Shown here piece after piece: positions 776 to 49,963 of a stretch of 64,000 bases of DNA. This DNA comes from Macrocystis pyrifera. Lineage: Eukaryota; Sar; Phaeophyceae; Laminariales; Laminariaceae. The stretch is taken from the NCBI GenBank assembly GCA_031763025.1, contig JASSKH010000009.1, forward strand, positions 8,125,305 to 8,189,304, written 5' to 3'. Each line of letters begins with the position of its first letter. Positions within the stretch are counted from its first letter, which is position 1. The position numbers were made by a program, and so were the translations under genes. Under the pieces are notes generated by a model that saw only the letters and a program-made list of their open reading frames with translations, had not been told where the DNA came from and ran no database searches.

Positions 776-1405
776 CGGGCTATACGCCGCAGTGGCAGAA
801 GTAACGTCTCGAGGAATCGAGCCTCAGGGTTCCGTATTCAACCACGAAATGTTTCAACCATCGATGATTTCAATGTGTTCCATGTACGAGTATGAAGGCT
901 GAAAAGCTCTGCACATTTTTTCATCATCACAATCTAAAAATCACTTTTGCTTTCCAGGGGTGTTTCGTCGGAAGTTTTTCCGTCAGCGACCTTCTGGACC
1001 TTACCGTGGTCACAGCTGTTGCCCCCACTCCAAAATTGGCCACGACTCGTGACGTTTGAAATACGTTGGGAAAAGGCATGCATTTCGTGTATGAACGCTG
1101 ATTGGGAGGAGGTTAAGATATATATGTTTCTATACGCACAAATATATATGGTGCTTCTTCGTCCTGAAATTAGTCCGGGATGATAAACGTCTGACGTACA
1201 GAATATATAAAAACACAAAATACCCCACTATTTTTAACGTGGACTGATTAAACGATTGGTAATCAATTTAGCAACCTGTGTAATACTTGTTATGCAGAAC
1301 AATTTTCAGAAAGCAACGTGTCATACAAGACCACGCGTAGAGCATCACTTTTACTTTCCAGGTTGACTCGTACCAGGTAGGAGTTTTTACCCTTATTTAA
1401 AGTGT

Positions 1406-1680
1406 GATCTTCTGGACAAGCCGTGGTCACAGAGGCGTCGTCCCTTCTGCCCCCTGCCATATAGCTTCATTTATATCGGGCATAGGGATCATCAGCATTC
1501 TCACTGCCCGTCGATTGTTTGTTGTTGCTGACTCACACTCTCGCAAATTCCGCAGGGAATTTTTTATGCAAGAAAACGTCCTACGAGTATGCACTCGGTG
1601 AGACTCGAACCCACGGAGTTGATCTTATTAATAGTAGGAACGCCGACCACCTACTACCCAGCCACCGGGAACGCTGTCTA
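1406..1680 (-). mobile_element. tRNA-derived SINE, nearly full length
   Basis: On the minus strand the element starts with a tRNA-like head: A-box region TGGCTGGGTAGTAGGTGG at 1,664-1,647 and B box GGGTTCGAGTCTC at 1,612-1,600. A body of about 190 bp follows and ends near GACCACGGCTTGTCCAGAAG. The same head-plus-body order occurs at 35,630-35,885 (+) and 50,709-50,975 (-). The head lacks a pairing acceptor stem, so it is not a working tRNA. A 6-nt TATTAA insertion at 1,626 is absent from the right copy. Confidence 0.7.
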
Positions 1681-2338
1681 CGAAGAAACGAACACACTGA
1701 TTTGCCAGGTACACGCATAATGTGCGATTTGTATTCAGAGCGTGTGTTACGCGCCCTCTGAGTACGTACTTGTATTGCATGCCTGAGAACACGTAAGATA
1801 ACACATCTCCTGGAACGATTTTCAGAGGGTTTTAGCCACAATCAGGTATACCTTGCCACTTCTGGGTCAAAATCAGTTACACTCTAAAACCAAGAACAAA
1901 TCACACACCAAGACCCCCGCAACAATGTTGGCCGGACTGCCATCGTATCCTAAAGAAACAAGGGCAGGTATACCTGGTTTTGTCTACCTTTGTCTCCAAC
2001 GTGACCCATCGTTGTTCAAAACCTTCCCGTCAAAGAGAAAAATGGACGCTGGCGGCGAAGAAATCGGGCTAGTGGTTAAGACGTCTTGAAGAAGCGGCAG
2101 AACAGTACATACATGGAGAGCTGGTGGAGAATGTAGCAAAAACGGCGAGCGCTTTAGGCATAAAATGACGACCAACTTAATCAAGACGCCGCTGGGCCTA
2201 AGGCCAGGGGGGGGGCTGCCTTGTAGGAGGCGTAGCAACAGCAGCTAGGCTGGTTGAGAAAGCGCCCAAACTTGGCACTGACTGTCTTTCTAGTTGAGAC
2301 TCCTGGTGACTACTGCCTGAGGCCGTTACTATTAGTAA

Positions 2339-2938
2339 TTGGTGGCAATGAGGCGCGACTTCAATGATACCAGGAGTTGTCATATTTGCGATGCATCATG
2401 CTGGCGCGAATGCGGATTATTCTGTGTTGTGTTGAATCAACACGAACGAACATCTACGCACTACGTAGGCGGTCGTATGAATGTATCTGTGACGTTTGGG
2501 CTCTCAGGGCATGTCCAAACAGGAATCGAAAATGGGAAATCGAAAATCGAAATGACAAATATGTACTTGGCGCTGATTGGTCCCTGGCCCAAACATGTTC
2601 CCGTTCGTTTTTTAGGTTCCGCGAAACTGAATGATTTAGTATTACAAGCCGATGCCAAAATCAAAACGTTGACTGCTGGAAACGAATATCATAGTTTTAA
2701 AATTCGAAAAGCATATCGAAAACACGAACAGCAACAATTCAGGGCGCCCCACTGGTCAGCGCAGCCACGTCAAAATATCACATCAGGACCGCCGTACACA
2801 ACATCCAACCCACAGCTAGCACGGCAACACAGCCGCGTAGACCCCCCCGTAAACGATCAGCTGGCGAACCACAACACCAGCCCCGACGTTATCAGGCCTT
2901 TGTTTCCCGGCGTTCGAGCCAAAGCGAATATAGTTTGA
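2339..2938 (+). CDS. Unidentified ORF, 199 codons
   Basis: An uninterrupted frame of 199 codons with an in-frame ATG lies at the left edge of the copy-specific block. The N-terminal third has a few Cys/His residues (HICDASC and similar). The middle is mixed alpha/beta-like, and the C-terminal third is rich in Gln, Pro, Asn and Arg, as in nucleic-acid-binding tails of retroelement proteins. I recognise no domain. The first codons lie on sequence bordering the duplication, so the true start could be downstream. It may be a fragment of a mobile-element protein or a chance ORF. Confidence 0.2.
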   Translation: MVAMRRDFNDTRSCHICDASCWRECGLFCVVLNQHERTSTHYVGGRMNVSVTFGLSGHVQTGIENGKSKIEMTNMYLALIGPWPKHVPVRFLGSAKLNDLVLQADAKIKTLTAGNEYHSFKIRKAYRKHEQQQFRAPHWSAQPRQNITSGPPYTTSNPQLARQHSRVDPPVNDQLANHNTSPDVIRPLFPGVRAKANIV

Positions 2939-2985
2939 GGGAAATTAACGTTGATGCCCTGCTCAACGAGGTCGGAAGTTCGTTT

Positions 2986-3835
2986 GAAGACGAAAAAATC
3001 TGCACCTGACATGCGTAGTCCAACAAGAAGAGCTTCCCGTAGCAGCAGGTTCCACCACTACTATTAATGCTGACGTACCACATCTACAACAGAACTTCTC
3101 CAGCAGCAAAACAGCAGCAGCAGCAGTAGCAGTAGGACACACTAGGCCAGCGTCAGCGTCGCTGTACGCTCGGCTTGTCAGTCTAACCCTCGAACCCTTA
3201 GTACACGTACTCGATTTTGCCGTGTGTTTCCTGGTTCCGAACTCAAACTTTCGCATAATAATTTGAAGACTAAAATTCTGCACGTGGCATGTTTAGTCTA
3301 ACGGAAAGAGCTTCTCGGAACACCAGGTGCCACCACTACTACTGATGTACGACATCTACAGCAGAGCTTCTCAGCAGCAAAACAGCGGCAGCAGTAGCAG
3401 TGGGACACACGAGGCCAGGGTCAGCGTCGCTGTACGCTCGGCTTGTCAGTCTCATCGTTGAACCTTGGGCGTAATTTGAGGACGAGAAATCTGCACCTGA
3501 CATGTTTTGTCCAACAGTGAGTGCTTCTCGTAGCGGGTGGCATCACTACTACTGATGTACGACATCTACAGCAGGGCTTCTCCAGCAACAAAACAGCAGC
3601 AGCAGAAGCGATAGCACACACGAGGCCAGGATCAGCGTCGCTGTACGCTCGGCTTGTGTTGATTTAAACTTTGAACCCTTTGAACACGTACTCGATGTTC
3701 TTGTGTGTTTCCTGGTTCCGCACTCACGTTTTTTGAAGACGTAAATCTACAACCTGACACGTGTCCAACAGAGCTTCTCGTAACAGATGCCACCACTGAT
3801 ACTATTGTACAACATCTACAGCAGATCTTCTACTG
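2986..3835. repeat. Diverged minisatellite, four units of about 210-280 bp
   Basis: Units start at about 2,986, 3,265, 3,478 and 3,735. Each begins with a GAAGACGAAAAATCTGCACC-like string and continues through a CATCTACA(G/A)CAGAGCTTCTC block, an AACAGCAGCAGCAG run and GTCGCTGTACGCTCGGCTTG. The last unit stops early. Spacing differs because units 2 and 3 lose segments of the full first unit. CAG triplets in each unit keep short frames open on both strands, and those frames should not be read as genes. Confidence 0.85.
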
Positions 3836-4242
3836 CTTCTCCGTCCCCTCATCAGTAGGAGGGTGGGCCTGAAAATACCACCTGCAGCATCTCTTGGGGA
3901 CATGGCCCGAACGTTGCTGTGGACAGACACGCACAGTCTGCCTACGATTACTCGTAGAGTTGGGATTCGTTAGGTAGACTCGAAAAACCAAACACCGTCA
4001 CGTGTGATATTTTACGGTTGTTGGTTCTGTTTATTTTAAGCATGGCCCAGCCCACGTTGCCGCACCTAGCTCGACGAGCTGTGAACGACCTACCACCACA
4101 CAAGCACGAGAAGGCTTCGTTTGTGTGTGTGCGTGCACAGAGCCCGCCGGGACTGGAATCGGTGCCGTGTGCGTTGAGTGCGGTCGGCAAACAAACGGTC
4201 CCGGAAAAAAAATGTTGAATAATGATGACTGACACACACATA
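3836..4242. other. No gene seen
   Basis: This stretch lies between the minisatellite and the R1 repeat. I found no conserved frame and no match to other parts of the window. Confidence 0.5.
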
Positions 4243-5412
4243 CACACATAGAACTACTTATAGATATCTCAACCTCTGAGCGTGCTTGGTTGGTACATCC
4301 CTGGCCTCTCAGAGCTCCCACTTGGGAATCGCCTCCGTTTATTACTTGCCGGACTGTTCCAGCGAGTCTTTGTTTTCTCCATTTATTTCTCGTCGTACTT
4401 TCAGTCCTTCTTTCCTTTTTGCTTCTTTCGTTTCGTGTGCGTGCGTGTACTCCGAGCACCGTTGCGCGGGCGAACCCGGCACCGTCGCGGGTGTCAGCGG
4501 ATGCTGGCGAGTAGAGGGGGGGTTGCAAGGAGCGCGGTCGCCGCTTTCGTGCCTCGGCGTAGCGTGTGCCTCGAGACACGAGGGATGCATCATTAGGCTC
4601 TGTCTGGCCTCCATTTGTGATTTTGGATAGAGTACGTACGAGTATTTAAGGGTCGTTTGGGATTGTAAGATAATATTCAAGTGGTGCTTATTTTTGCGAC
4701 CGGGCTGAGAGTCACAAGAGGGAGGTACCCCGAATGAGCACCAACATTGTCGAGCTTGCATCGAGGTCCACGGTGAGCACCGGGCTTCACGCGAGGCGGG
4801 CGACGGGGCTCACTGTGGAAGAGAGGGAGGGAAGCTTTACCCGGACTGAATCGGTGGCGAGATGGTCGCGAGAGTGGCGGGCGGCGTACGAGGTTGAGAG
4901 AGAAGCTCTGCTGTGATATTTTTTCTTTTTTTCTTTTTTCTTTTTTTGACTGGTATAAGGTGTTCCACTCAGGTATTAAATTATTACACGAAAGGGGACG
5001 GGGATTTTATTTCTTTTCGATTTTTTCGGTTTCATTTTCATTGCTTTCGCTGTGTTGCTGTGCCGTTCTGTGGTGCTTTATATTTCGTACATACGAGTAC
5101 ACAGACACAAAGCATATCGAAAGAAGAAAATAAGTACCCTACCTGGGGTATGTACGTATGTACGACGTGTGAGCGAGCGTAGCGGAAAGCCGCCCGCGAC
5201 GCGAAGCATATGTTGCGTCCGAGCTGTTTTCTCCTGGAGCATGTCGGCGGGACTCTTGGCATTATCAAGTCGCCAGTTAGCAGCTAACTACAGGGGCCAT
5301 AAAAAACACAATATTCAATCATGGACCTCTGTCCGCTTAGCATAATTTGATGTTTCCTTCCTGAGCGAGCGTAACGGGCGGCGTAGGCCGCCCGCGGAGC
5401 GAAGTGCCTTGT
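4243..5412 (+). repeat. Dispersed repeat R1, copy 1
   Basis: R1 is about 1.15 kb and occurs four times in one orientation: here, 19,372-20,520, about 43,920-44,903 and 63,024-64,000 (cut by the window end). Shared blocks, in order, are a pyrimidine-rich run, GTGTACTCCGAGCACGGTTC-like sequence and a 60-codon frame starting STNIVELA at 4,734-4,913. TACCCTACCTGGGGTATGTA-like sequence follows, then a GC-rich hairpin at the end. In this copy the 60-codon frame has a one-base loss and a later one-base gain that restore it. I do not recognise the product; a mobile-element origin is inferred. Confidence 0.75.
5363..5410. other. GC-rich hairpin at the 3' end of R1
   Basis: GAGCGAGCG is followed by GCGGGCGGC-like and GCCGCCCGC arms around a 3-4-nt loop, then GGAGCGAAG. 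The same structure ends the R1 copies at 20,470-20,518 and 44,852-44,900. Loop and arm bases vary (GTAGGCC or GTGGGCC) while the flanking GAGCGAGCG and GAGCGAAG are kept. It could be a transcript-end or replication structure of the repeat; that is inference. Confidence 0.6.
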
Positions 5413-8262
5413 ACATACATACTTACACACATACATACATACATACATACATACCTACATACATACATACATACATACATACATACATACATACATACAT
5501 ACATACATACATACATACATACATACATACATACATACCTACCTACCTACCTACCTACCTACATACTACCTACATACTACCTACATACATACATACATAC
5601 ATGCATGCATGCATACATACATACATACATACATACATACATACATACATACATACATACATACATACATACATACATACATACATACATACATACATAC
5701 ATACATACATACATACATACATACATACATACATACATACCTACCTACCTACCTACCTACCTACCTACCTACCTACCTACCTACCTACCTACCTACCTAC
5801 CTACCTACCTACCTACCTACCTACCTACCTACCTACCTACCTACCTACCTACCTACCTACCTACCTACCTACCTACCTACCTACCTACCTACCTACCTAC
5901 CTACCTACCTACCTACCTACCTACCTACCTACCTACCTACCTACCTACCTACCTACCTACCTACCTACCTACCTACCTACCTACCTACCTACCTACCTAC
6001 CTACCTACCTACCTACCTACCTACCTACCTACCTACCTACCTACCTACCTACCTACCTACCTACCTACCTACCTACCTACCTACCTACCTACCTACCTAC
6101 CTACCTACCTACCTACCTACCTACCTACCTACCTACCTACCTACCTACCTACCTACCTACCTACCTACCTACCTACCTACCTACCTACCTACCTACCTAC
6201 CTACCTACCTACCTACCTACCTACCTACCTACCTACCTACCTACCTACCTACCTACCTACCTACCTACCTACCTACCTACCTACCTACCTACCTACCTAC
6301 CTACCTACCTACCTACCTACCTACCTACCTACCTACCTACCTACCTACCTACCTACCTACCTACCTACCTACCTACCTACCTACCTACCTACCTACCTAC
6401 CTACCTACCTACCTACCTACCTACCTACCTACCTACCTACCTACCTACCTACCTACCTACCTACCTACCTACCTACCTACCTACCTACCTACCTACCTAC
6501 CTACCTACCTACCTACCTACCTACCTACCTACCTACCTACCTACTACCTACCTACCTACCTACCTACCTACCTACCTACCTACCTACCTACCTACCTACC
6601 TACCTACCTACCTACCTACCTACCTACCTACTACCTACCTACCTACCTACCTACCTACCTACCTACCTACCTACCTACCTACCTACCTACCTACCTACCT
6701 ACCTACCTACCTACCTACCTACCTACCTACCTACCTACCTACCTACCTACCTACTACCTACCTACCTACCTACCTACCCTACCTACCTACCTACCTACCT
6801 ACCTACCTACCTACCTACCTACCTACCTACCTACCTACCTACCTACCTACCTACCTACCTACCTACCTACCTACCTACCTACCTACCTACCTACCTACCT
6901 ACCTACCTACCTACCTACCTACCTACCTACCTACCTACCTACCTACCTACCTACCTACCTACCTACCTACCTACCTACCTACCTACCTACCTACCTACCT
7001 ACCTACCTACCTACCTACCTACCTACCTACCTACCTACCTACCTACCTACCTACCTACCTACCTACCTACCTACCTACCTACCTACCTACCTACCTACCT
7101 ACCTACCTACCTACCTACCTACCTACCTACCTACCTACCTACCTACCTACCTACCTACCTACCTACTACCTACCTACCTACCTACCTACCTACCTACCTA
7201 CCTACCTACCTACCTACCTACCTACCTACCTACCTACCTACCTACCTACCTACCTACCTACCTACCTACCTACCTACCTACCTACCTACCTACCTACCTA
7301 CCTACCTACCTACCTACCTACCTACCTACCTACCTACCTACCTACCTACCTACCTACCTACCTACCTACCTACCTACCTACCTACCTACCTACCTACCTA
7401 CCTACCTACCTACCTACCTACCTACCTACCTACCTACCTACCTACCTACCTACCTACCTACCTACCTACCTACCTACCTACATACATACATACATACATA
7501 CATACATACATACATACATACATACATACATACATACATACATACATACATACATACATACATACATACATACATACATACATACATACATACATACATA
7601 CATACATACATACATACATACATACATACATACATACATACATACATACATACATACATACATACATACATACATACATACATACATACATACATACATA
7701 CATACATACATACATACATACATACATACATACATACATACATACATACATACATACATACATACATACATACATACATACATACATACATACATACATA
7801 CATACATACATACATACATACATACATACATACATACATACATACATACATACATACATACATACATACATACATACATACATACATACATACATACATA
7901 CATACATACATACATACATACATACATACATACATACATACATACATACATACATACATACATACATACATACATACATACATACATACATACATACATA
8001 CATACATACATACATACATACATACATACATACATACATACATACATACATACATACATACATACATACATACATACATACATACATACATACATACATA
8101 CATACATACATACATACATACATACATACATACATACATACATACATACATACATACATACATACATACATACATACATACATACATACATACATACATA
8201 CATACATACATACATACATACATACATACATACATACATACATACATACATACATACATACA
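5413..8262. repeat. Compound tetranucleotide array, about 2.85 kb
   Basis: The array is built of two unit types. ACAT-type units run from about 5,413 to 5,537, mixed CTAC/ACAT with a short ATGC stretch runs to about 5,612, and ACAT continues to 5,740. CTAC units fill 5,741-7,480, and CATA units fill 7,481-8,262 without a break. The CTAC block has only a few phase slips (near 6,541, 6,629, 6,751, 6,776 and 7,165). Neither plus-strand unit contains a stop in any frame, so very long YIHT/YLPT reading frames arise by periodicity and are not genes. It abuts the 3' end of an R1 repeat. Confidence 0.98.
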
Positions 8263-8364
8263 AACAGAGAAACTCAAAACGAGGCACCCTATCCTCGTAT
8301 GCGAGTCGTTATGAAGAGGCTTTTTTTTTCCTTGTAAAACCAAGAAATAAAAGGCTCGAGCTGC

Positions 8365-10622
8365 GCCTCATTACAGTCCCTGGTATAAATATTTGATTTG
8401 GTTTTCCTAGGTTTGTGTGTTAGGATGCCCTATATTCGGTGTCAAGTCAATGGTAATCTCCCCCCCGTACCCTGTCATGTTCTGCGTCGGCTGCGTCACC
8501 TTGATTGTTGTACCTGTGTGACACTTTGCTATTTTACCTTCTCTCCCCGATACTGTTGACATTTCCCTTTTGGTCCGTCTGGATCTGTCCTCTTTTTGTC
8601 GATTGTGTCGTCCTTGGCTCACCAACTGATAAAACTGCTCATGTTTGTCTGTTGTTATTTATAGCTCTTTGTCTCTACCCTCTTCTTCTTTTTGTCTTCT
8701 CGCCTTCCGTCATGTATTCTTGTGGGCGTCCTTATATTGGTCCATCAGCTGGGCATGCCATACGACTGATCGTAACAGCAAACAGCAAACTTGTCCTCGG
8801 AACTCGGCCTGCGTCTTGAGTGTATGTTTGCGTCGTTGTTTTCCCTATTGTCTTCTCTCTCTGTCGTTTTTCCCTTTCATATTTTTTTTTCTCTGTTCGT
8901 GTTTTCCTTTCACTTTATTTTTTTTCGAGTGTATGTACATAACAGTACCATCGACATGTTCTTGGTTTTAGTTTATTGCAATTGATATAGGATTGTACAC
9001 CACACACAGCTCGTTAGTACCGTTTCCCTTGCGGAGTGGTATATATATATGGTACTGCCGTACCCGCTATTTCTTACTTGTTTGTTTTCTCCCGTCGAGA
9101 GGCTTTTTTTGCTATATATCCTGTTTTCGTGACCACAGCAGTACTCGTAGGCAGGATTTTTTGTTCAGGGAGGTGATCATCAACAACCAACCCTGTCTAT
9201 TATTAACAAGAGGTTTCAACTTATTTTGACGATTTTTGAACCACCCAGAAAGGCCGTACGTCCACTGTTATTTATCTGCGTATGGTTATGCGGTCCCTCC
9301 GCGACGCAACTCTTGTGTATAAACTCTGTTATCATACGTACGGATTTATGAATACATACGTACGCTGATTTTACTTTTTCTTATTTGTGGTCTTTGATGT
9401 GCTTCGGTTGTTATGATGTGTACTCTGTTCTTCCCACGGTCACAGGTGTCATATTACAGCACCACCGCCGTGGATACACACGGCAGTTCGTCTGCCCCAT
9501 TCCGTGTCGAGGTGGTCTCTGGTTTGGCACGGCAAAAAAAAGTCGTGCCGAGCAGGCGGTTTCTGCGAAGATGGTCGAGAATCTTCAAAGCTGGCAACTT
9601 GGGGGGGGCGCCACAATATATATTACGTTGGTGCTCCCACCGTGGCGAAACAAACAAAAGTTTATGAGCCTCTGCAGGTCCAAATGCAGGGAGCCCCTGG
9701 CACCTACTAACAAATCCGATGTTTGAGGCGACACGCTCAATGTTCGTGCGCAAACTAAAAACGTGTGTGATTTCTCATGGCCATTTCCAGAGTTTGTTTT
9801 TTACTTGGTTTCAGTATGTAACTTTTTTTGGCTCAAATGCAACAGGTGTACCTTATTTTGACTTTTGTTTCCCATTTTCAAAGCTGGGCTTCACGACAAC
9901 TGGGAGGGTGCCGAGCAATGCGCCTAAGCAAACTTCTCGACGAAATATTTCTAAAGCGACCATTTTCGTTGTGTGTGCCCGCATATTCTGGAGGAAACCG
10001 GGTCTGAAATTCGTGCCAGGGGGTGTTTTATCTTGACTATAGTATGACGGCGGCACTTTCACACACATACCGCCGTTACGCACCAGGGCACGACGTAATG
10101 TACAATCCATGCGGAATCGCAGGTTAGACTAGTTACTACTGCCTATATTGAGGTCGCGCTTCTATAATACGCTCTCTCGCATGTACGTAGCCGGTACCAA
10201 TGTCGGGACGAGCCAACACACACACAACACGGGAGGGGACAAACAGCAGGGGGAGTACGCGGTCTCAACACGACAAACAGCTGCTAGCAGTTGTTCTGCA
10301 CACGATATTCTTTAGACCTTTTAAGGTCATTTTATCGAGAGCGTTTTTCCAGAACTCTCAAAATTTGGAATTTGATAATTGTGACTCAAGATTCGGAGGC
10401 GTTCTGCGACAATTTTGGTGAACTTCTTCATAAGCATGAATATCAGGAATATTTTGAAAACACAATCAGGGAGTTCTGGAAGATTAAAAGAAAGCGCGAA
10501 CCAAAAATATGGAAACATAAATTTTTTCGTCCTTTTTCCGCCTGACGTTAGGTCTACCGAGAATACTTGAAGTAATACTGGCTGTACCAACGGTAGCACC
10601 GGTGTCATGTTAGAGCACCCAC
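8365..10622. repeat. Large duplication, left copy, no gene recognised
   Basis: This aligns with 51,610-53,857 at roughly 90-96% with small indels. It holds T-rich stretches (8,870-8,930) and many short frames that differ between copies. I saw no conserved coding pattern. If the first-exon model below is right, it is the start of a very long intron on the minus strand. A TACTCG insertion at 9,142 is absent from the right copy. Confidence 0.8.
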
Positions 10623-11538
10623 CTGAAATCAATAGTAGATCGTTTGCAGCGTGGTGCATGGAGATGCTACCCCAAGAGCAGAGGTCCCCAGGAGTGGTCC
10701 TTCCCATCTCGCTCAGCTCGTGTACCAATGAGGCAGCCATACTCCACTCCCTTTTGCGCAAAGCTCCCGCCGGGGTAGTGAGGTGCTCGCCGTTCGTCGC
10801 ACTGGGATCCGACCAAACGTTCGTAGAATGGAGATCAATCGACTCCGACATGAGGTCGTCCAGCAACTCAGCGATGAACGCGCCACTTCGAGACGAGTGT
10901 GCTGGCAGTGTGCCTGGCGACAACTCTAAGTGGAGGCCTCCCACGTTCTCCATGCGCATCGACTGTCCGTGGTTCGTCGCTAGTCTGGCCGGGCTCTGGC
11001 TGGGCTGGTCACCCAGAAAGCCATGATCCAAAACACCTGGAGCGATCTTCAGCGATGATGGAAAAGGCGCAATGCTGGTCAGTCCGATTTCGGGGTTGTC
11101 CGATATCGCTCGTGCTTCAGCATGCGACGCCGTCGCGATAAAGCAAGCCCCGTGAGCGCCTGAGTACGACACGGGGCGCACAGCCTCAGGCGATAGGAAC
11201 AGTTGAAGGCCACCGATGGTCCCGCGACCACGGCTATACTCGGTGCAGACCAGGTGCGGCGCGCGTGCATTGCCTCGATCGGCTGCGAGCCTGTCTCCGG
11301 TCCACTGCGCAGCCGCTTGGAACCCCTTGGCGTTGTCGGTGAAGGAATCCTTCGCCGTTGTCAATAGAGCTGTCTCTACCACACCCATCGAAGGATAAGG
11401 CAAGCTGGTCGACGAACCCCGTGACCAGGACGAGGAAGCCACTGAGGCCAGGAGCAACGCTCTCCTCATACCACGGTTCCTTGAAGACATCCCCCTCCTG
11501 GCGCGTGGAGTTGGAGGCACCGCCCTTTCGCAAATCAT
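10623..11538 (-). CDS. First exon of a secreted subtilase: leader plus propeptide-like region (left copy)
   Basis: The frame is open for 305 codons and ends at a consensus donor, ATTTCAG|GTGGGT (exon end 10,623), in phase 1. From an internal Met (codon 17) the protein has a basic start then ALLLASVASSSWSRG, a likely signal peptide, so that Met may be the real start. The rest (about residues 60-300) has no known fold signature but carries conserved blocks such as LSPGTLPAHS, LMSESIDLHSTNVWSD and CSWGSISMHHAANDLLLIS. The right copy at 53,858-54,773 has exactly the same length and about 92% DNA identity with no frameshift, which suggests selection. No downstream protease exons lie to its left inside the window. 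Confidence 0.6.
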
Positions 11539-12254
11539 GGATGCGAGCGTCGACTTTCAGTTTTTAGGCGGGGTGCAGTCCACGCGCGTTAGTTCGTGCT
11601 TCACCTTTGACCGTATCGCGGGTTTTTAGGTTTCGGGTTTTTGCGCTACATTGGTGCTTCTGCCGTGCATAGAAACTGTAAATATGTGTTTTATCCGACG
11701 TATTACTTTCAACTACATCTGGTATTCGGCAGTGCCCCTTCATCAATATACCTGCGTCCGAAACCTGATGTCACGCATACCCAAAATATAGCAACTTTTT
11801 TTTTTAATTTTAATTTTTTATCAACAGTATGAAATACGTAATATATCTACCGCAGGTACTATTAATAGCAATTTCTTCGTGCGAGTCGGTCGAACCCATG
11901 GCCTACATTCAGGTAGATGTGGTATTCAGTGGTAGTTCAGTGATGAAGATGTTCACACATCAGCGCCCTCTTCTGAAATCCAGCCTGCGGTCACAAAAAC
12001 AGGGTTTGACAAGCATGCATCTCCACGGGAGAAAGTAATCAACAAGTACAAAATAGTGCTCACGGCAGTGTCATACTAGTCTGTAAAGGAAACGGTGCTT
12101 AAGAGCTGTGGCATGTGTGTGTTATTCACAAATCAACGCCCTTTGACGTCCAAACCATCCGTAAACAACAGCTCTTCTTTGCGGGGGGCTTGGCACATCA
12201 AAGCAAGCAGCGATTGCCCAGTCAGGTAATATTCGGGAAGATGGCTGGCGTGAA
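11539..12254. other. Upstream region of the left first exon
   Basis: This is non-coding sequence between the protease first exon and the decayed frame to its right. It is conserved with 54,774-55,560 apart from the foldback insertion present only in the right copy. An A/T-rich stretch (11,795-11,822) and two short TATTAATA-type motifs are present. A promoter must lie here if the exon is transcribed, but no motif is clear enough to call. Confidence 0.5.
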
Positions 12255-12265
12255 AAACCCAAGAC

Positions 12266-12530
12266 TTGGTGGGCAGTTTAATACTTGCCATAGTCGAAGA
12301 CCTTGCGGAGTTCCGAGCCACGAAAGGGTCAACGGAACTCACCCTTAGTGTTTGGACCGACCTCTTGTCCACTGCAGCAAAAATGGCGGGAAAGTGGTAC
12401 CGGGGGGTCCTTGAAGCAGCCGAACGGTTCGTGGTGAAGTGGAACGAAGATGAGGCACAGCTGAGTAGGCAGCGCCACGCATCCGCCGTGGGTGGTGCTC
12501 CATGGAATGGGGCTGGGGGGGCAACAGCAG
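12266..12530 (+). pseudogene. Decayed unidentified coding fragment
   Basis: The left copy keeps a helical-looking frame containing VEDLAEFRATKGSTELTLSV and WYRGVLEAAERFVVKWNEDE. In the right copy (about 55,570-55,770) the same frame has a 2-nt deletion and in-frame stops (TGATACC, GAGGCATAG). The composition resembles capsid-like proteins of retroelements, but no diagnostic motif is present. I treat both as remnants. Confidence 0.45.
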
Positions 12531-12563
12531 GAGTGGATAGAAATCGGACGAAGGGAATGCGGC

Positions 12564-12581
12564 GGGGTGGGGGGGGGGGGG
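12564..12581. repeat. Poly-G run
   Basis: GGGG-T-G13 here matches an uninterrupted G25 at 55,864-55,888 in the right copy. Homopolymer growth between the copies is the simplest reading. Confidence 0.9.
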
Positions 12582-12584
12582 TAC

Positions 12585-13560
12585 TCATTTGTGGCTTGCC
12601 TTCGTCATTTGACTATTGACCACGCATCCCTTTCGAGACGGAGCACCGTTCCTACTCCTAATAGAGACACCTCCAACAATGATATGTTCATTACGTTGTT
12701 TCCATATTTTACATCGAAACGTTTTGCTAATCTTATCCCCTTCCTGTTTGGCCTCCTGTGGCCACCATCTACCTCCTAGGATAGCGATCGTTTTCTCGCT
12801 GCTATTCATTGTATCAGTTTTTCCCTGTCGCATTCGTCTATTTCCCTCGTCTCCTCTTCTGACACATCCCGTTCCTCCTAGTATTTTTTCACATTCTCCT
12901 ACTATGTGAGTTCTACTCTCTATTGCTTTGCCACTCGGGCACATCTGTGTATCTATTTCCTCCTCCTCCCGGCTATTGGTGTACCTCTTTCTGCTTTCTG
13001 GCAGGTCCAGGTCCCCTACACGAAATCGCAGTTTCAACGTTTTGGCGAAGTCGATTGAGCCATGCAAGTACTTTTCATTCCTATTCCTTCCGTCAATCCC
13101 CCGTATATCTCTAAGTGTTTTTCCGATTCCACCTTGTTTCTTAGCGCTAACCTCTCCCTTCTTTCTACGATTTCTTCTACTTCAGCCTTGTACCTCCCCA
13201 ACTTCCTGGCGGACATCATCTCTTCTTGGTTTCCCCCGATACCCTTCCATACTTTCTCAACTACGCCATCCCACCTTATTCCAGCTCGCCCTTTTGTTAC
13301 TTTCTCCCATACAGCTCCTGCACATTCTAGCATTGATACTATCACATTCATCAAGATACATCTCTTAACCCTAGTGTCAAGGCGCGAGTCTGTTAGGATC
13401 GCATCTATCTTGCCTACTTGAGCTTTACCCTTTCCTATTACTTTTGATGTATATGTATCCCAAGAGCAGTCTTTTGAAATCGGGGGGGGGGCGACAGAAG
13501 GAGGAGTACAAGGAAAACCGTGGTGGGCGAAAGTAGAAAGGAGATGGCAGACATTATAGA
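12585..13560 (-). mobile_element. LINE-type retrotransposon remnant, 3' part of ORF2
   Basis: Minus-strand frames contain blocks typical of the region after the reverse transcriptase in non-LTR elements: LTDSRLDTRVKRCILMNVIV, VWEKVTKGRAGIRWD, GRYKAEVEEIVERRERLAL and a Cys-His knuckle. Here the knuckle reads CPSGKAIESRTHIVGEC, with one Cys changed to Ser. No reverse transcriptase or endonuclease core is present, so the piece is 5'-truncated. Frames break near 13,050. The right copy (55,930-57,000) keeps about 200 bp that this copy has lost between the IVSML and WEKV blocks and has the intact CPCGK knuckle. Confidence 0.75.
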
Positions 13561-13755
13561 AAGGCACCAGGCAGAGGAGTAAAGGGAACATGTCTATGCC
13601 AGTCGTGCCGCTAACTGCTGCAGTCGATTGCAGTGTGGTCTTCCTTTGATATATTGCAAGGCACCAGGCAGAGGAGTAAAGGGAACATGTATATGCCAGT
13701 CGTGCCGCTAACTGCTGCAGTTGATTGCAGTGTGGTCTTCCTTTGATATATTAAT
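13561..13755. repeat. 97-bp tandem duplication
   Basis: AAGGCACCAGGCAGAGGAGT starts at 13,561 and again at 13,658, and each unit runs through GTCGTGCCGCTAACTGCTGC. The right copy has one unit only (about 57,073-57,165). The duplication is therefore younger than the large segmental duplication. Confidence 0.9.
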
Positions 13756-14460
13756 ATTTTAGCGCGTTGATCCTCCGTGATCATCTTATTGTTGCTTCTA
13801 TTTTTGTTTCTTCTTGCCCTTATGGAAGGAGTCGTGTGGCGTGGGTGAATGGCGAGCTTGCTTAGCTTGTTTCGAATTGTCTGACGCATCCTCTCTGGGG
13901 ATGGAGCAAAGTTGACGAGCGCAGGACGGAGACGGCAGACAGGGTAGCGAGGTACCAGGTCGACTATTAATAGTAGGTAAACCCTGGCTATGCTACTCGT
14001 ACCACACACTGCTTCGGCTCCCTGGAGGGTGCTTCTTGTTATATATTTGGTGTCCTTCAGCTTGCTTGGTATTGCCTTCGGTTCGTAGTCTTGCTCTGTA
14101 TGTAATGGTGTTGATTCTTTAGCTCATGTATTTTTTTATGTCTGCCACATCCCCTGCGTGGGGCCACGATAGTGTCCCCCTCCCTCTTCTCTTCCATTTT
14201 TTGTTTCTCTTGTTTCATCTCTTCCATATAATGCGTATGTCGTGCCTGTGTTATTCACTACGACAGCATGGCATTGCAGTGTCTACTCTGCCTACAGCAT
14301 AACAATGTAGTATCGCTGTGGCGGAGTTTTGTGACCACATAACTTGTATCTCCCTAATATTGGAGATCCGGCACGTACACTGGTTGTGTTGGATGTCAAT
14401 GGGTGAAACGGACGGTTTAATGTTATAAGGACACACAGCCAGGTACCTATTTTTCAATCC
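13650..14460 (-). repeat. Dispersed repeat R2, copy a
   Basis: R2 is about 0.5-0.8 kb. Read on the minus strand it contains, in order, GACATCCAACACAACCAGTG, GGGATGTGGCAGACAT, AGCACCCTCCAG, TGTGGTACGAGTAGCATA and a short basic reading frame with PERMRQTIRNK and TTPSIRARR. Other copies are 16,150-16,695 (+), 47,255-47,900 (+), 57,070-57,880 (-) and 59,570-60,110 (+), with a partial one at 21,590-21,870 (-). The basic frame stays aligned between diverged copies. The family is not one I recognise. Confidence 0.7.
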
Positions 14461-14492
14461 TGAAGAGATACAAGTTATGTGGTCACAGAACT
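14326..14492. repeat. Inverted repeat, 28-bp arms
   Basis: Arms at 14,326-14,353 and 14,465-14,492 are near-perfect inverted copies (AGATACAAGTTATGTGGTCA on one arm's strand), 111 bp apart. The same pair is at 57,746-57,773 and 57,885-57,912. They sit at the outer end of R2, where identity between the two large copies jumps. Confidence 0.75.
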
Positions 14493-15932
14493 ACCCCCCA
14501 GAGATACCACATTGTTCTGCAGCGATCAGATTAGACAACGCGACGTCATGTCATCATACAGTGGGCGGCCGGGTTGAAGAAATAATGTTGGGTTAAAAAA
14601 CAAAGGCTCAAATTGCCGAAAAAATATAAGAAATTGGGTGTAAGAAAGACAGATCAATGTAGGCAACATTGAGGCAGGGCAAAAGGACGGTGTGGGGGGA
14701 GGAGGTCGGGACGGGCGCTGACTCCAAATGTTTGCAACGCGGAGCTTTCAGCTTAGTGGGGGGTCAAGCTTTACGCGTTGGTCCACGTTGTGTAATACAG
14801 GCGTGCATTGGTACTCGAACTATATGTACTTCGTGTATGCATACCGTATGAATATGTTCGTAGGAAAGTGTAAGATGTGTTTGAGGAAGCTTTGAGTGTT
14901 CGTTCATTTCCAACATATTATATCCATCCAGGTCGTGATGGGTTCCGCAAATTGCGACTTCAGCCGGGCGTACCTGCAACGTTCAGCACATTTTTCTTGG
15001 TTGGGGAGCTCCAGAGAGGACCGTGAGACTATTCAATCGTGCAAATGTGCAATGCGTATGCGCCTCGTTGAGCCATGTATCTCGGTGCATTACGTCCCTT
15101 GATCTAGAGTTGGTGGACATTCCACGTGAAAGAATCTCCACCCCTGATGTGAAAGTAGTGAAGGATGTAATCGGGTTTTCTGTTTCAGCCGATTTGCGGT
15201 GATACAACTTCCCGTAATGTTGTGTGGTGCGTAGTTGGTAGGAATATGGGAACATTGCTTGATGTGGCATATCAGTCACTTTGTATACTGCTTTGATGCT
15301 CATGTCGGTAGTTCTTCCTATAGGTGTTTTATTGATACGTCAGGAGGGGCATCTGTGACAGTAGTGTTCTACAGTACTGTAGCACGCAAGGATACATATG
15401 TTCCCTTTGCCACTGGGGATAGTGTAATGTTGGCGTAATATGTGAAATAGAGGCCATCGTAGTGATGTGAGACATGCGAGTCTTGCATACACATTTGTTT
15501 GGACGGGGGATCGTCGCAGTGATGTGACCCATGAGAACTCCTCGGATTGCCAGTCGGAAAATAGCCAGAGGCGGTACATTACAGAGGATTTATTGGTGGA
15601 CACAACGTATTTGTGGACTATATACGAGGGAGACGTTCGGTACAAAAGAGTCAGGCGGGCAATTCTTGGTTCTCGTGTGTTTCGTTGGTGTTAGGATGAG
15701 CAAGGGAGGAGGAGAAGGGACCCTCCTCTCTCACTTCTTCTCTTCTCTATGACCCCCTTTCCCCACGGGACCGTCATGTATGTCCCGGGTGGTCCAATAC
15801 TATGTATCTTCTTTTTGTTCGTCTGCACGTCCCCATGGCATCGTAGAAGATTTATTATCTCGCGCCGAAATCATCCCTCAGGCTAGGATAAAAAGGGGAC
15901 AGCAGTCTCGGATAATCGTGCTGCGGTAAGGG

Positions 15933-16067
15933 ATGGATCTCTTTGCTTTGTCGGAATTCACGCAGGAGCAACGCGACGCCATGCACGCCTGGTTGACCGA
16001 GCAGCGTGCAGCATACCAGCAAGCCCAACGACAGCAGGCGATGCTAGTGAGGGCGCACACACCATAA
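15933..16067 (+). CDS. Small ORF, 44 codons, helical (gag-start-like)
   Basis: The frame reads MDLFALSEFTQEQRDAMHAW and then an Arg/Gln/Ala-rich helix, ending VRAHTP-stop. Acidic, hydrophobic and Gln-rich spacing predicts one or two amphipathic helices, like the first residues of many retrotransposon Gag proteins. Nothing downstream continues the frame: R2 follows at once and the next gene-like frame is on the other strand. The copy at 59,347-59,481 differs at two residues (Leu3 to His, Trp20 to Cys). It could be a truncated element protein or an independent small protein. Confidence 0.35.
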   Translation: MDLFALSEFTQEQRDAMHAWLTEQRAAYQQAQRQQAMLVRAHTP

Positions 16068-16149
16068 TACTTTGAGCCTGCACGCCAAATTGACGCTTGT
16101 TAAGACGGGGCGCCCACTGTACTCGATAAAGCAGTCACGACACACACAT

Positions 16150-16695
16150 TCTATGAAATAACGACAAGATAAAACAATCAAACACCCAGCAGAAAACAAA
16201 CTAATCGTAAGAGAAGAAGGGAAAACAAGAATAATCCGTGCCCCAGGGCAGTGGATGTGGCAGGCACTATAGGACGAGCTAATAAATCAATACCACTGCA
16301 TAGAAGCAGAGCAAGTCTAAAAACGAAGGGAAGCACGACGTAACAAAGCACCCTCCAGATACCCTCAGCACTTTGTGGTACGAGTAGCATACTGTAGACG
16401 GGTTCTGCTTGCTAGTTGGTCTGGCACCTTTTGTTACCCTATCTGCCCTCTCCATCTTCGTTTGTGAACTATGCCCCACCCCCGGAGAGAATGCATCAGG
16501 CAAAACAAAAAAAGCAAAGCAGGCTCGTGATCGACTCACGCGACAAGACTCCTGCCATAAGGACAAGAAGGAAGATATATCGAAACGAACGAGAAATAAA
16601 TCACGGAGAATCAAAGCTCAAAAGTATAAATAGCACAAAGGAAGACTACGTTCGAACCAGCTGCAGACGTTGGCGGCATGGACGTCATGGGAAAC
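16150..16695 (+). repeat. Dispersed repeat R2, copy b
   Basis: This is homologous to the minus strand of 13,650-14,240: GTGGATGTGGCAGGCACTAT, AGCACCCTCCAG, TTGTGGTACGAGTAGCATAC, then the basic frame with PERMHQAKQKK and TPAIRTRRK. With copy a it forms a large inverted pair about 1.7 kb apart. Its 3' end overlaps the end of the decayed gene on the minus strand. Confidence 0.7.
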
Positions 16696-17475
16696 CTTGC
16701 AGCCCTTGATGTAACTACACGACTTGAAATCGCGGAACGCGTGACTTAGGTTTGACTTGCTGCGTTTGGGCTCGGGTGTCGCCACTACCTCCTTTCCCCT
16801 CAGTTTCCCCGCGCCGCCTGTTGCCGCCCCACTACCGCTGCTGTCGGCCCGTAGTAGCTTGAACAGCGTGTCTTCCTCGCGGACAAACTCACGGAGCGCA
16901 GGGAATGCTGGCAAGGGAGGCATCTCGAAAACCGTCCCGGCCGGGGGTGGCGTGTCTGGCGAGTGATCGCCTTGGCCCCGGTGAGCTCACCAATCCACAA
17001 GCGAACATTTTCGGTGATAATGAAGCCGATGAATTTTTTTGGCGATCCCGCACCACTTGAGGATTCGATGTTTTTAAGCACGTGAGCCCGAAGGGCCAGC
17101 CCATCTTGACAAAGAGCGCGTCCAGCTTATGCACCCGCGTGAGGCCCAACACATCCACTGCCACGGTATCGTTCAGGCCCACGCCTAGGACAGACCCCAT
17201 AGCCTGCCGGAGTAGGTCAAAACGGTCCACTACCGGAATGTCGTGGTCGCTGACGGCTCCCATACGCGGGGCGAAATACAACATACCCAACCGCCCATCG
17301 ACCGTCACTGCAGTGTTATCTGATGTGTCACCTCGAGTATATCTGCCAGCAGCGCCTGCAGGTCCGAAACTGATTCGCCAGTAGCTGCTGGTATCTGACC
17401 GCGAAGAATCCAGTGCTTGCGGGGGGGCAACTTCCTCCACATCACAACCTCATTGCCAAGTTCGATCTTCTCCAT
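16618..17475 (-). pseudogene. Decayed unidentified gene, frames shifted
   Basis: A Met at 17,475 opens MEKIELGNEVVMWRKLPPRK in one frame. After a run of seven C the reading continues as VTVDGRLGMLYFAPRMGAVS and then HKLDALFVK. A second shift gives AHVLKNIESSSGAGSPKKF and ENVRLWIGELT, and a third gives FPALREFVREEDTLFKLL with a basic PKRSKS. Each piece looks like real protein, but they lie in three frames, so either short introns or frameshifts separate them. The right copy (60,035-60,892) shares every break and differs by about one residue, so the damage predates the recent homogenisation. No family recognised. Confidence 0.4.
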
Positions 17476-19371
17476 TTGCCGATATCGAGTATTTTTGCCT
17501 GCTAGATCTCCGCCCTATCCTTCTCCTCCGACTGTGTTCGAGATTCCATGCTGGACCCTATTTTGCGGATGATCGATCTGCCCGTGTAGCTTCCCTACCG
17601 TCTCTGTCACCTCACCGATCTGGCTCAACGCAGTCTGTCCAACATGTCCCTTGCTATGCCTATGTTGGAGGAGTGGGAGGCGCCCTCTATCTTGCTAGCA
17701 GCTCTTCATCATGCCTTACCCTTCCTGTTCCCTTCTCGTCACTAACGTCTCGCCACAAAAAGAACGCATACAATAGCTCCCCAAACGGTTGGCTCGAAAA
17801 CTTGGGAAATGTTCGCTTGATTGCTGCTTGTCTGCTCACAAAGCTCACGGCAAAGGCTGGTATTCGTTTGACTGCTTCTGAAATCACTGTTGTTGTAGTT
17901 CGCGTCGTTTGCATACCTCACGTACGTACATAAGCCTACTGCAAGATCTACATCCGTTCCGATCTACTATTTCTTACGTACGTACAAAACACATATACAC
18001 TATCTTGCTTTGCTGCGCTCCCCACGAGAATATTCCGCATTTCAAATACAAGCTTCGACAAAATTCACGGCACCAACATCTGACCAGTTCGTCCCGAAAA
18101 AATCTGCATGGGAAATGAGGTCGAATGTTAAAACCTGGTGCGAGCTGGTGTGTTGTGATGTCGTTTATACTGTGACAGTCGCAATATATATACCAGGTAT
18201 CAGGTACCGAATAAAGAATGTCTCTCGGAAATATTGACGCAATTATGCTGCAGCACTATATATATCATATTTACGTCTACAGCAGCAGCTGCCATCGCAT
18301 CATCTTCTTTTAACTCCTCGGCCTCCTACCCAGCGCCAGACCCATACTCGTCCACACCCACGAGTAGAGCTCCGTAAATTAATGTATGGTATTTTTCCTG
18401 TTATCTCAACCCTCCCTTGCCACTGTCTTCCCAGTTCAACCAGCTGAGCTCGCCGACAACTCTATGACCCTATTGCCCACCGCCTATTTTCAACGATTCA
18501 ATATCTCTCCACAAACCCCACATTTCCTCCGTTCAATATTCCACGTAAAAATGGTTTCGTCCTTGCGCGCGGCGCTTCAATTCATTTCGACGCATACATA
18601 TCCGTATTGACTATTGCTGCTCGGTTTACGTTACTGGTGTCCAAACTATTTAAGTACAAAATACGTAATAATACCAGGTACCAGGTAGGATATACACACC
18701 GGCAAAACTCCCCACTACGTACTGTTCTAAACATGATATTCGTCAAACGAAGAACTACCTGGTAAACCTGGTAGGAAGAGTAAGGCAAGATCGTGTTTTA
18801 GGAGCCGGTGATCGACTTTTCACACTTCAATGGTACTCGATCGATGTCGGCGTCGGATCTCCATTTTTTATTTTATTTCCAAATCATGGATCTTTAAATG
18901 AGAAATCGGCCAACAAACATTTTTGGCCATTTTCGCGTGTTGGGGCCGACAATACTTTGAGACTCAACGACTGATAAATATCCTTGCGAAAAGGAACCCG
19001 ATTTTTTTTATATTTCTTCTCAAGGGCTGTACGGCATCGGCGACCTCTTCCGATCAGACAGAAAATATCTGAAAAATAACGACGTTCCAGAATCACGAAA
19101 AGCTTCTGATATCGACTTTATTCTTGTTGACACGATGATAGTTCTTTGTTCACGAATACCAGGTAATATGTTTGGTGTTGTAGCAAGCTACAGCAGTACG
19201 TGCAACCTCCTTGGTATTCTTTTTTTTCAAATTTAGACACTTGGACACAAGAACTCCTAGGATTTTGCAGCTTCAGGTGTGGTCTTCCTCATATTCGGGA
19301 AATATGCTACATGAAGGGTATATGTAAATCTCGTAGCACGCGCTCGGTGGTAGTGATGATTATGGTGTTTA
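17476..19371. other. No gene seen; TA-flanked short motifs clustered
   Basis: No conserved coding frame is visible. The interval is rich in TACCAGGTA-type motifs (18,191, 18,672, 18,679, 18,756 and 19,157), two of them overlapping at a shared TA. A short match to 20,560-20,720 occurs at 19,200-19,330. Confidence 0.5.
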
Positions 19372-32893: not shown

Positions 32894-33254
32894 CCTTGTA
32901 CGCCTATACCAGGTATGTTTTAAAATATACGAAACTATTACGTCAAACGAAATCGCTCGCTCCCTCGACTCGATCGCGCCACCGTCGCTCCATTTAGGAA
33001 GTTTTGCTATCCGCTGAAAAAAACGTCGCAATGCCAAAACGTTCTCGTATATTGAAAGAACACCTCCATGTGGCCCAGGTTCCCGTCACGCCTCTCCCGC
33101 GGTTCCTGCACGCTTCCACCCCTTCGGAACCACGGCCACATCCGGGGCTGAAACGCCCTGGGAAGGCGCACCAGCGAAGTCGCACTATTCTAAGAATGAA
33201 GCCTCCGACATACGACGACAAGGGCGATGATGAAACCGATACCAGAAGGTTGTA

Positions 33255-34596: not shown

Positions 34597-37500
34597 CTAC
34601 GAGGACAGCACGATGGCCCCGTTGACGACGAGAGAATACCTCTGAACGTCAGTGATAAGACCTTTAGTCGATACGCGGACCGTCCAGGCCCCGCTTTCCA
34701 CATCTGCAGCGGCAACAATCACCCTCTCATTCACGTTTCTGGTGTCCACGTCGCCCGACGTCATCCACATGATGTGCGTCGCCCCAGTGGGAGAAACGAC
34801 TTCAAGGTCCAGGTCGTGGACCAACTGAACCGCTGCATATACAGTGGAAGGGGGGTCGATCCAGGATATCGTGGCTCGGAAGTCAAACCCAGCCCCGGCG
34901 TCGACGTCGAAGACGAACTCATGCGAGCTGAACTCGGGCAAGAAGTTGTCGGCGGAATCGGCCACGAAAAGAGCCAAGCTTCCTTCCCCGTCCAGCGGCA
35001 TCCCCATTTCAAGGTGTACCCGCCCGAAGCCGCGAAATTCGTCCGGCTCCGAGCTTCCTCCCATCAGATTTGCGCTGTTGATGAGCAGGGCCTGAACGGC
35101 AAAGGATTTGGTAAGTAAATCGTGCAAGCGGCGACATTGAAGCGAATATTGCCCACGGTAAGTAGCATTGTCGAGGCTGTCCTCGGCTCTCACAATCCGA
35201 GTAAGGCCATGGATCTGCAGAGCCCACCGTATTTTGCAACAGGACTGGCATGCACACAACATTCAAGCTGACCTCAAAACGCTCACCCCGTGGATCAACT
35301 GTGTATATAACAAAATTGCGTCAATCTCAAAGCGTTCACAGTCGAATCGAGCTTGTGACCTTGACAGATATAAAACTAGGCGAGCATGGTCATACCTTTA
35401 CCGTCGCTGACGAGGGTGAAAATGCTTCGCACGAGCACGCGGCATCGTTACACCAACCGCGCGCTGTCACATCAGCAGCGTAGAAGCTCTCATCCGAGAA
35501 GTACTGCCGTACCTGGGAATTGAGGTGAATCGATGCAAGATCACAACGATGCCAGCGTTAGGCATGTAGCGACGTGTACGTAGCAAGATATTGTTAAAAG
35601 CTGCTGAACATCGCGGGCATTCCTAACCGAAGCGTCTCCGATGGCTTGGTAAGTGGTCCGCGTGCCTATCAAGATCATTTTCGTTGGTTCGAGTCTTACC
35701 GAGTGCATGTTCGTAAGGACTTAAGAGACGATTAACGGCAAGCGCGAGAGCGTGGGTTAGCTACATTCGATGAAAATCGCCGAGCAGTGGCAATGATGAG
35801 CCCTATACACAACAGAATAGAATGGCACGTCTCGGGCGGGAAAAGGAACGATACCTGTAACCATGGCTTGTAAACATGATTGCTGAGGGTATAACATCCT
35901 ACAAGTTAGGCTGGAAAGTAAACAAGTTGTGACGATCAAAATAAAAAAACAAACAAAAGCTGGGCCAACCGGCTACAGACCTCGAGAAGCACGACAGTAG
36001 CGCGTATACAGCTTTTCGGTTGCATGCATTAACGCCTGACACACCGCAGTGCCCGTTACGTGACACTACCGTGAATCCCACTGTTAAACGTACGTCGTTT
36101 TTTTTTTTTTTTTCGTCGATCACGCGCTCAAACGATGGTGTCCAGCACACCCCGAACGTGTACTTTCATTCGTAGACAAGAGAGAAAAGGCCTGGATTCT
36201 GAACAGAAGAGCTTACCATGGCCGATGCTCCCGCCACGATAGGGCACGACATAGACGTGCCCGCGATAGCCTGCAGCCCGCAAGAATGGGTGTCCGTAGC
36301 GTCGCTTCTGGCAGAGTATATCTGTCAAACAGGCAAACGCATCAGATGAGAGTCTTCGCATGCGAGCCGTCACCGACATGCCTACATGAACAGCTAAGTT
36401 TGACGACTTACCATCGTCATCAAGATTCTATGTGCAATTCTCTGATACCAGGTACACCCACGAAACTTCCTGCCACATCACTCGTACACAGGTGGCCGCG
36501 AACCCGCGTTGTCCAATGTAATTGTGAATATCAGCTTGGAGACATTGATCATTGTAGCGAACACCACAAGATATCGACAACCTAAGTGTGGTACAATATT
36601 TAGTGCGTCCACAACGAGTTTCATACGCCGACATTGTGCCACAGGGGACTCCCGGCCACCTGTGTGCTTACTCCACCGACGTGTGGTCAACGGATGGGAT
36701 GCTGCTGGCTTAGAACGAACCAGATTATGTGGGAAGTCTTCAGATATGTGAATGATATTGGGAATAGAACGGGCATGCTTACCGTGTCGCCCGGAGCCAC
36801 GACCTCAGGCTTGATGCGGCCGTCCCGGGTAAAACCGTACGAGCTGAAAACAGCCACCGTGTCCACGTCCGCGAATCCGTTTGCGCCGCTGAAACTTTCG
36901 CCGTCCGCGCCGGTTGTGGTTATCCGTGTCTCTCCCGACGACGTGGCTCCAACGGCGAGAGAGTTCTTACCAATCGCTGGGGAGTTTATAGTGCACACTG
37001 TGCGCCCGTCGTTGATGTCACCCTCGTTGCCAGCAGCGAAAATCAGCAGATTCTCTGGATTCTATGCGGAGCCGAAGAGCACAGCGCGTGAAAAGGGGGT
37101 GTAGGCAAACGGTGCTGGGCGATGTATTTTTTGCACTGAAGTTGATACCATACAGGGCGGGCCACGCTTGTGCTGTGGGCGAAGGTACTACAGATGGGCG
37201 AGTTCGACCACAAGCGCTCCAACGCAACAACGTTCGGCAAAGCATTCAGAGACAAATACGGCTAGTGCAGGAAGGCAGGAGGTTGATTTGTTAGGGCGGT
37301 CAGGTAGGGTCTATGTCTCTCATCTAGTCGTGGCATGGACAATGTTTCGGCTGCAGCTCACCTTGTACATGAAGTCATCGTACTCGATATCTATTGGGCG
37401 CAACCAACAAAAGAAGTCAACACCAGCCGACACGGAGTGAATTTTGCAGCCTGCCTCCAAGCACGGCGCCCACAGTCCGTTTCCAGGACTCTCTGTTAGC

Positions 37501-47254: not shown

Positions 47255-47900
47255 ATGTTACTTGTCGACATCCAGCACATCCAGTGTCCGCGCCGATTCT
47301 TCAACCCTAGAAAGATACAAGCTCTGAGATCAGAAAACTACGATACAGAGACACCTGACTATAGTGTCATTAGGTAAGCAGACTAGACAGTGCAATGTCA
47401 GGATATCGTACAAGGTACGACAGGTACGACATACACATCCTTCGTCGTATAAATGATGGAAACATCGAAGCAAGAAAAACGAAAAAATGATCGAAGATAT
47501 ATATTTTTAATGCGTGGTGCCCCTCATAAGGAGATGTGGCAGACAACAAAAAAACAGGCAAATAAAAAAAACCATCACATATAAACGAAATATCACTACG
47601 AGCCTAAAGAAAGAACAGGCAAGCCGAAGCACAGCGAACCAGACGAAGACACACCCTCCACACAGCTGCAGCAGTTTGTGGTACGGGTACGTGTAGCATA
47701 GACAGGTTCCACCTCCAAGTTGGTATAGCACCTTGCTATCCTGTCTGTCCTCTCCTTCTTGCTTTGGTCAACAGTTCCCCACCTCCGGATAAGATGCGTC
47801 AGAAAATCTAAAAATAAATCAAACAGGTTCGTCATCTACCCACCAAACGATATTTTATATGTTAACGGGCAAGGTAGAGGGAACCAGAACGTAACGGTAA
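47255..47900 (+). repeat. Dispersed repeat R2, copy c
   Basis: Blocks in order are GACATCCAGCACATCCAGTG (47,268), GATGTGGCAGACA (47,533), ACACCCTCCACAC (47,650), TTTGTGGTACGGGTACGTGT (47,675) and a frame with ALVNSSPPPDKMRQKI that then stops. It is the only R2 copy outside the large duplications that spans the whole element. Confidence 0.65.
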
Positions 47901-49824: not shown

Positions 49825-49928
49825 TACGGGGGACCATAGTAAATAGGACCAAATGTTGTTGCTAAAAATAGGTAAATATTAAGGTTTTCGTGTGTACCGT
49901 AGGTCCTATTGACTATGGACCCCCGTAA
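49825..49928. mobile_element. 104-bp MITE-like element with 26-bp terminal inverted repeats
   Basis: The left end reads TACGGGGGACCATAGTAAAT and the right end is its inverse (24 of 26 match), ending GACTATGGACCCCCGTA. The flanking TA on both sides fits a TA target duplication, as in Tc1/mariner-type elements. The corresponding place in the left copy (about 640-680) lacks it, so this is a real insertion. It is too short to encode a transposase. Confidence 0.8.
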
Positions 49929-49963
49929 TATTAACAGAACATCAACGACAACATATTAATAAG

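Follow-up and report, generated by a model that had tools for sequence, protein, structure and literature searches.

The genome of the kelp Macrocystis pyrifera carries a large excess of short units in which two TA dinucleotides enclose a core of three to six nucleotides. These TA-N(3-6)-TA units are probably end-joining footprints of short, TA-duplicating cut-and-paste elements, most likely MITEs of the Tc1/mariner type. Such an origin had been proposed in an earlier note on a 64,000-nucleotide stretch of contig C223 (8125305-8189304), hereafter the window, on the basis of eight TA indels and ten occurrences of one recurrent 9-mer. The present analysis covers the window, the whole assembly (537,376,219 bases in 223 contigs; 537 Mb), a 200-kb sample drawn from contig C223 only, with one piece per 400 kb (L009-L028), and a 288-kb set that includes the window, with 28 loci, eight of them 3 kb long; two pairs of these 3-kb loci overlap.

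All ten positions at which TACCAGGTA or TACCTGGTA had been reported are exact (Table 1), and five more matches lie in the right-hand recent duplicate, for a total of 15 in the window. The earlier estimate that about 0.5 would be expected by chance was recomputed as approximately 0.39 (P = 1.7e-11), with the TACC array and the recent duplicate masked ahead of the window and pooled word counts. No other 9-mer of the window ranks higher, simple repeats aside.

Table 1. TA units, TA indels and a MITE copy in the window (positions are those of the window)
Feature	Position	Strand	Remark
TACGAGTA	885..892	.	left-only; flanks messy
TACCAGGTA	1371..1379	.	insertion relative to ~50685
TATTAATA	1626..1633	.	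insertion; present in 1/3 aligned copies
TACATACAT	2106		tandem slippage fits equally well
TACTCGTA	9142..9149	.	indel relative to ~52372
TATTAATA	13965..13972	.	insertion; present in 1/5 aligned copies
TACCAGGTA	18191..18199	.	exact 9-mer match
Two TACCAGGTA units with one TA in common	18672..18687	.	exact 9-mer matches
TACCTGGTA	18756..18764	.	exact 9-mer match
TACCAGGTA	19157..19165	.	exact 9-mer match
TACCAGGTA	32907..32915	.	exact 9-mer match
TACCAGGTA	36446..36454	.	exact 9-mer match
TACCTGGTA	45333..45341	.	exact 9-mer match
TACCTGGTA	47126..47134	.	exact 9-mer match
TACGTGTA (TACACGTA on minus strand)	47688..47695	.	insertion, 1/5 aligned copies; absent from the earlier note's list
TATTGTAATA	49472..49481	.	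right-only
KM1 copy	49822..49930	+	109-bp MITE edged by TA on either side, with inverted ends YTACGGGGGACCATAG
TACTACT	59809		tandem slippage fits equally well

The same word is abundant far beyond the window. TACCAGGTACC occurs 16,599 times in the genome (8,284 + 8,315 hits), compared with 188 (90 and 98) for the reversed sequence used as a control, an excess of ~88-fold. In the 200-kb sample, TACCTGGTA has 48 occurrences where 1.3 would be expected, and only words of a tandem GGGTC-type repeat rank above it among 9-mers. The 58 occurrences of TACCAGGTA in the masked window and sample have 58 different flank pairs, and the 23 occurrences of TACAGCAGTA have 23. When over-represented 7-11-mers in varied flanking sequence were listed without bias, 20 of 25 words proved to be a TA unit or to overlap one; the remaining five are AAGCGCGA, AAAACAAAA, CCCTCTCCC, ATCCGGCCC and CTGCTGTG.

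Judged against 20 order-3 simulations of the 200-kb sample, five unit classes are over-represented by 3 to 29 times: TA-CCWGG-TA (48 versus 1.6), TA-CAGCAG-TA (19 versus 1.0), TA-TTAA-TA (23 versus 3.7), TA-CTCG-TA (27 versus 6.7) and TA-CWG-TA (72 versus 23.8). Combined, they amount to 189 units per 200 kb where 36.8 are expected. Seven pairs of units with a common TA are present in the sample and none in the simulations. The window P value, the genome counts, the sample counts and the simulations together rule out a chance origin. TACGTA is over-represented in the window too (48 versus 19.1, both strands), and TACCCGGGTACC occurs seven times in the masked window and sample; both are possible further unit classes.

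Several units can be polarized as insertions. TATTAA at 13965 is found in one of five copies in a repeat alignment, where another copy has a unique TACACG, and TATTAA at 1626 is found in one of three copies of a second repeat; both are therefore insertions. Of the eight TA indels listed previously, five hold up as clean TA duplications (1371, 1626, 9142, 13965 and 49471-49481), whereas the one at 885 is messy and those at 2106 and 59809 could equally result from slippage. A TA duplicated around a short insert, as in excision footprints of Tc1/mariner elements, is thus seen in window indels, in repeat alignments and in the KM1 element described below.

Abundant palindromic units with varied flanks might also be expected if TACCWGGTA and the other units were short functional motifs, such as binding sites, maintained by selection. 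However, the units arise as insertions within repeat and MITE copies, a polarity that opposes selection as their main origin, and their unrelated cores have nothing in common but the TA borders. We attach almost no probability to this explanation. No tRNA genes or known RNAs were found at the unit sites, and a search of viral contigs gave no match. A coding explanation was rejected when 20 window ORFs compared with Pfam yielded a single sub-threshold peptidase S8 match.

Other features of the window were recorded. Subtilase-like gene pieces, with a Pfam S8 match under the curated cut-off, lie on the minus strand at 34597-38009. The (TACC)n array (5432-8261; 2.8 kb) is confined to the left copy. 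A near-perfect 70-bp palindrome with a tRNA-like AGCTCAG stretch is located at 46353-46422, and a similar palindrome occurs at L010:2587-2650. Inverted repeat arms of ~340 bp (13703-14041 and 16341-16678, plus right-hand copies) are 73% alike and 2.3 kb apart, with further copies at 47267-47843. An insertion of ~230 bp in the right copy (61539-61769), with a GGTC duplication at its flanks, is missing at 18118-18122.

A census of small indels shows a preference for TA. Among repeats in the 288-kb set, we found 203 distinct 4-12-bp indels with clean flanks. End homology is shorter than two bases in 119 of the 203, so the majority of the small indels in these data are of another kind. The count suggested by the earlier note, of TA-flanked indels against those at other dinucleotides, was made on 4-12-bp indels whose end homology is exactly 2 nt, excluding tandem and simple repeats. 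TA is the site of 8 of 33 such indels, compared with 5.2% expected (P = 2.4e-4). Outside the window the fraction is 6 of 24 (P = 1.2e-3), and among indels with two or three bases of homology, 16 of 49 contain TA (P = 1.6e-5).

A sharper view of this preference comes from KM1, an abundant 109-bp MITE that came to light in a scan for TA-flanked inverted repeats, is represented by 25 copies or fragments in the 288-kb set, and served as a trap for inserts. Three copies carry inserts. One has both TATTAA and TACCTGG, a second has TACCTGG where the first has it, and a third, which aligns poorly, has TACAG. The pattern AAATATATAN{2,14}TAGGTTTTTG, which spans one KM1 TA, matches 530 places in the genome, and its reversed control matches none. 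The pattern GGTTTTTGTGN{2,14}TGTGTACCGT, which spans a TG site ~10 bp downstream, matches nine, of which at least four are plain TG repeats. With 19 fixed bases in the first pattern and 20 in the second, the comparison is between a single TA and a single non-TA site. Because unfilled sequences of the TA and TG sites number four and three in the 28 loci, the chance of detecting an insert should be about equal at both. Thus, as required of Tc1/mariner footprints, TA is preferred over other sites both among the indels (8 of 33) and within KM1 (530 versus 9).

The inserts at this one TA are ragged. In a tally of the first 100 of the 530 matches, 18 inserts are AT repeats, 27 are CCTGG, 10 CCAGG, 7 CTGG, 4 CCGG, 3 CCAG and 3 CCCTGG, and 28 units appear once each, including CCATGG, CCG and CGG. 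The AT repeats aside, 82 inserts are listed, and some of them fall outside the CC..GG series (for example, GGT, GGTA, TTTA, CAAG and GCGG). Most of these 82 form a ragged series of the kind expected from rejoining of CCA...TGG ends after excision. Judging by its own ends (TTACGGGGG, TT/AA), KM1 is a possible source of TATTAATA.

Simple-repeat slippage would account for the 18 AT repeats among the 100 listed inserts, as for the two indels at 2106 and 59809, which are tandem. The main cores, however, are not tandem copies of their own flanks, which excludes slippage for the main units and leaves it a negligible overall probability. Direct micro-insertion into TA, whether by transposase and loose ends or by filling of TA breaks with a fixed oligomer, would require that no full element was ever present, in keeping with the great surplus of units over candidate elements and with the fact that none of the scarred sites seen holds an intact element. 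Yet the series CCATGG, CCTGG, CCGG, CTGG, CCAG and CCG is easier to obtain from rejoined ends than from a single oligomer, and we know of no mechanism for such insertion; we regard it as quite improbable.

Excision followed by end joining, the reading that we favor, would proceed as follows. After an element has inserted at TA, cleavage by a transposase would follow at a later time, a few bases within each end of the element, so that the two flanks carry an identical short overhang. The flanks are then joined by the cell, and both TAs are retained along with a few terminal bases of the element. For the commonest core, CC-A/T-GG, ends of the form CCA...TGG would overlap by one base, placing A opposite A, and repair would give CCAGG or CCTGG. 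Rarer joins of the same ends would give CCATGG, CCGG, CTGG, CCAG and CCG. On joining CCA to TGG, no base would be lost in CCATGG, one in CCTGG or CCAGG, two in CCGG, CTGG or CCAG, and three in CCG or CGG. The dominance of one-base-lost joins with a central A or T appears to fit an overlap of one base in which A is mismatched with A.

The remaining cores (TTAA, CAG/CTG, CAGCAG/CTGCTG and CTCG/CGAG) would come from other element families. CCWGG, TTAA and CAGCAG are largely self-pairing, CTCG in its outer bases only, and CAG by inspection; this self-pairing of most cores, a post hoc observation, would fit annealing of identical overhangs, as in Sleeping Beauty. The bases next to the units also differ: T just precedes CCWGG in only 4% of cases, whereas C just precedes TTAA units in 52%. 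Flanks are symmetric because both strands were counted. Differing flanks favor several families, and the earlier proposal of several families agrees with the several core classes and their flank preferences.

The leading candidate source of the scars is KM2, a Stowaway-like MITE represented by two related copies of 83 and 81 bp (L018:798-880 and L023:5079-5159) that start with TACCA and end with TGG. L018:798-880 is short and has inverted ends and TA at both edges, as Stowaway elements do; L023:5079-5159 has CA at one edge. The KM2 termini are CCACTC/CCAGTC, and the terminal CTCCCT of Stowaway elements, always present in those of carrot (PMC3695323), is absent. A CTCTGTCC stretch in KM2 nevertheless resembles the carrot Stowaway primer TACTCCCTCCGTCCC (PMC3695323). 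Only two KM2 copies are present in 288 kb, whereas the masked window and sample together contain 58 CCWGG units.

A PF13358 profile search of the genome for DDE_3 transposases scored three candidates and gave no match; because PF13358 alone was searched, we claim only that the elements work like Tc1/mariner. No high-copy element starting with TACCAGG or TACCTGG was seen, and TA directly follows 116 of 194 such words. Inverted repeats flanked by TA (35) are hardly in excess of those flanked by AT (31), CG (31) or GC (26). L016:8472-8684 was first read as a CCAGG MITE, a reading since dropped. Two other elements were observed. A hairpin MITE with TTAA flanks and ends CCCCTTTAGTACCG (window 55210-55308), which looks piggyBac-like, is missing from the left copy. 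A 345-bp insertion at TA (L011:7108-7452), taken from among those in a noisy list of large insertions, has weakly inverted ends, TA-CTTGTGAAGG...CCTTATCACA-TA, and a paralogue with an empty site.

The lack of a DDE_3 match in the PF13358 search of the genome and the variable core length, from three to six, might instead indicate TA-targeting elements outside Tc1/mariner. We consider this unlikely, because mariner and Stowaway elements are described as duplicating TA and leaving some of their end bases behind (PMC4561436, PMC1925063), and Mariner-Tc1 elements are common in the brown alga Ectocarpus, with 17 families and ~12,000 copies (PMC12477816). Overall, the excision reading of the earlier note is supported: TA-flanked indels and the 9-mer both exceed their controls, so neither outcome that it had named against this reading occurred.

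The units resemble the footprints of Sleeping Beauty and Tc1, in which TA is kept on both sides of a short, end-derived core after end joining; Sleeping Beauty footprints correspond to its 3' overhangs (PMC7827188). The kelp source is a candidate element, and Sleeping Beauty cuts three bases in (PMC7827188), whereas the main kelp core has five (CCWGG), alongside 3-, 4- and 6-base cores. Stowaway and Osmar MITEs of grasses, studied also in yeast assays, similarly leave 1-4 bp of end sequence at TA, with several variants per site (PMC1925063, PMC3660474, PMC4561436). The grass footprints are described at single loci, and the candidate kelp MITE starts with CCACTC/CCAGTC rather than CTCCCT. As in our analysis, excision products of mariner elements were surveyed at genome scale in rice, but there insertions exceed excisions by 2.6-2.8 to 1 (PMC4423477), whereas kelp units greatly exceed candidate elements. 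Ectocarpus, likewise a brown alga, is also rich in MITEs of the TA type; neither "footprint" nor "excision" appears in the available text of that study (PMC12477816). In the open literature searched, scars of this kind were not described for any brown alga, nor did word searches of the available texts of PMC12477816 and PMC10498591 reveal one; "DNA transposon" and "Tc1" are absent from the latter.

If the one sampled contig is typical, extrapolation from the five classes gives roughly 400,000 excess units per genome. The surprising part is that scars are far more numerous than the candidate elements now visible. Elements may have been lost, scars may have multiplied through duplication, families of elements may have been missed, or excision may be very efficient; any one of these could produce the surplus. 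A bolder and rather doubtful possibility is that TA elements are removed nearly as fully as they are inserted, through near-quantitative germline excision, perhaps host-driven with imprecise repair, so that few elements remain beside scars numbering in the hundreds of thousands. Ciliates, which remove TA-bounded elements, offer a loose parallel to such host-driven clearing.

If the excision reading is right, these scars would be among the commonest marks in the Macrocystis pyrifera genome. At a single site in a MITE, what is seemingly one break would then have been repaired naturally in hundreds of recorded instances, constituting a record of end joining in brown algae, and the scars would make it possible to count jumps by elements that have since disappeared from view.
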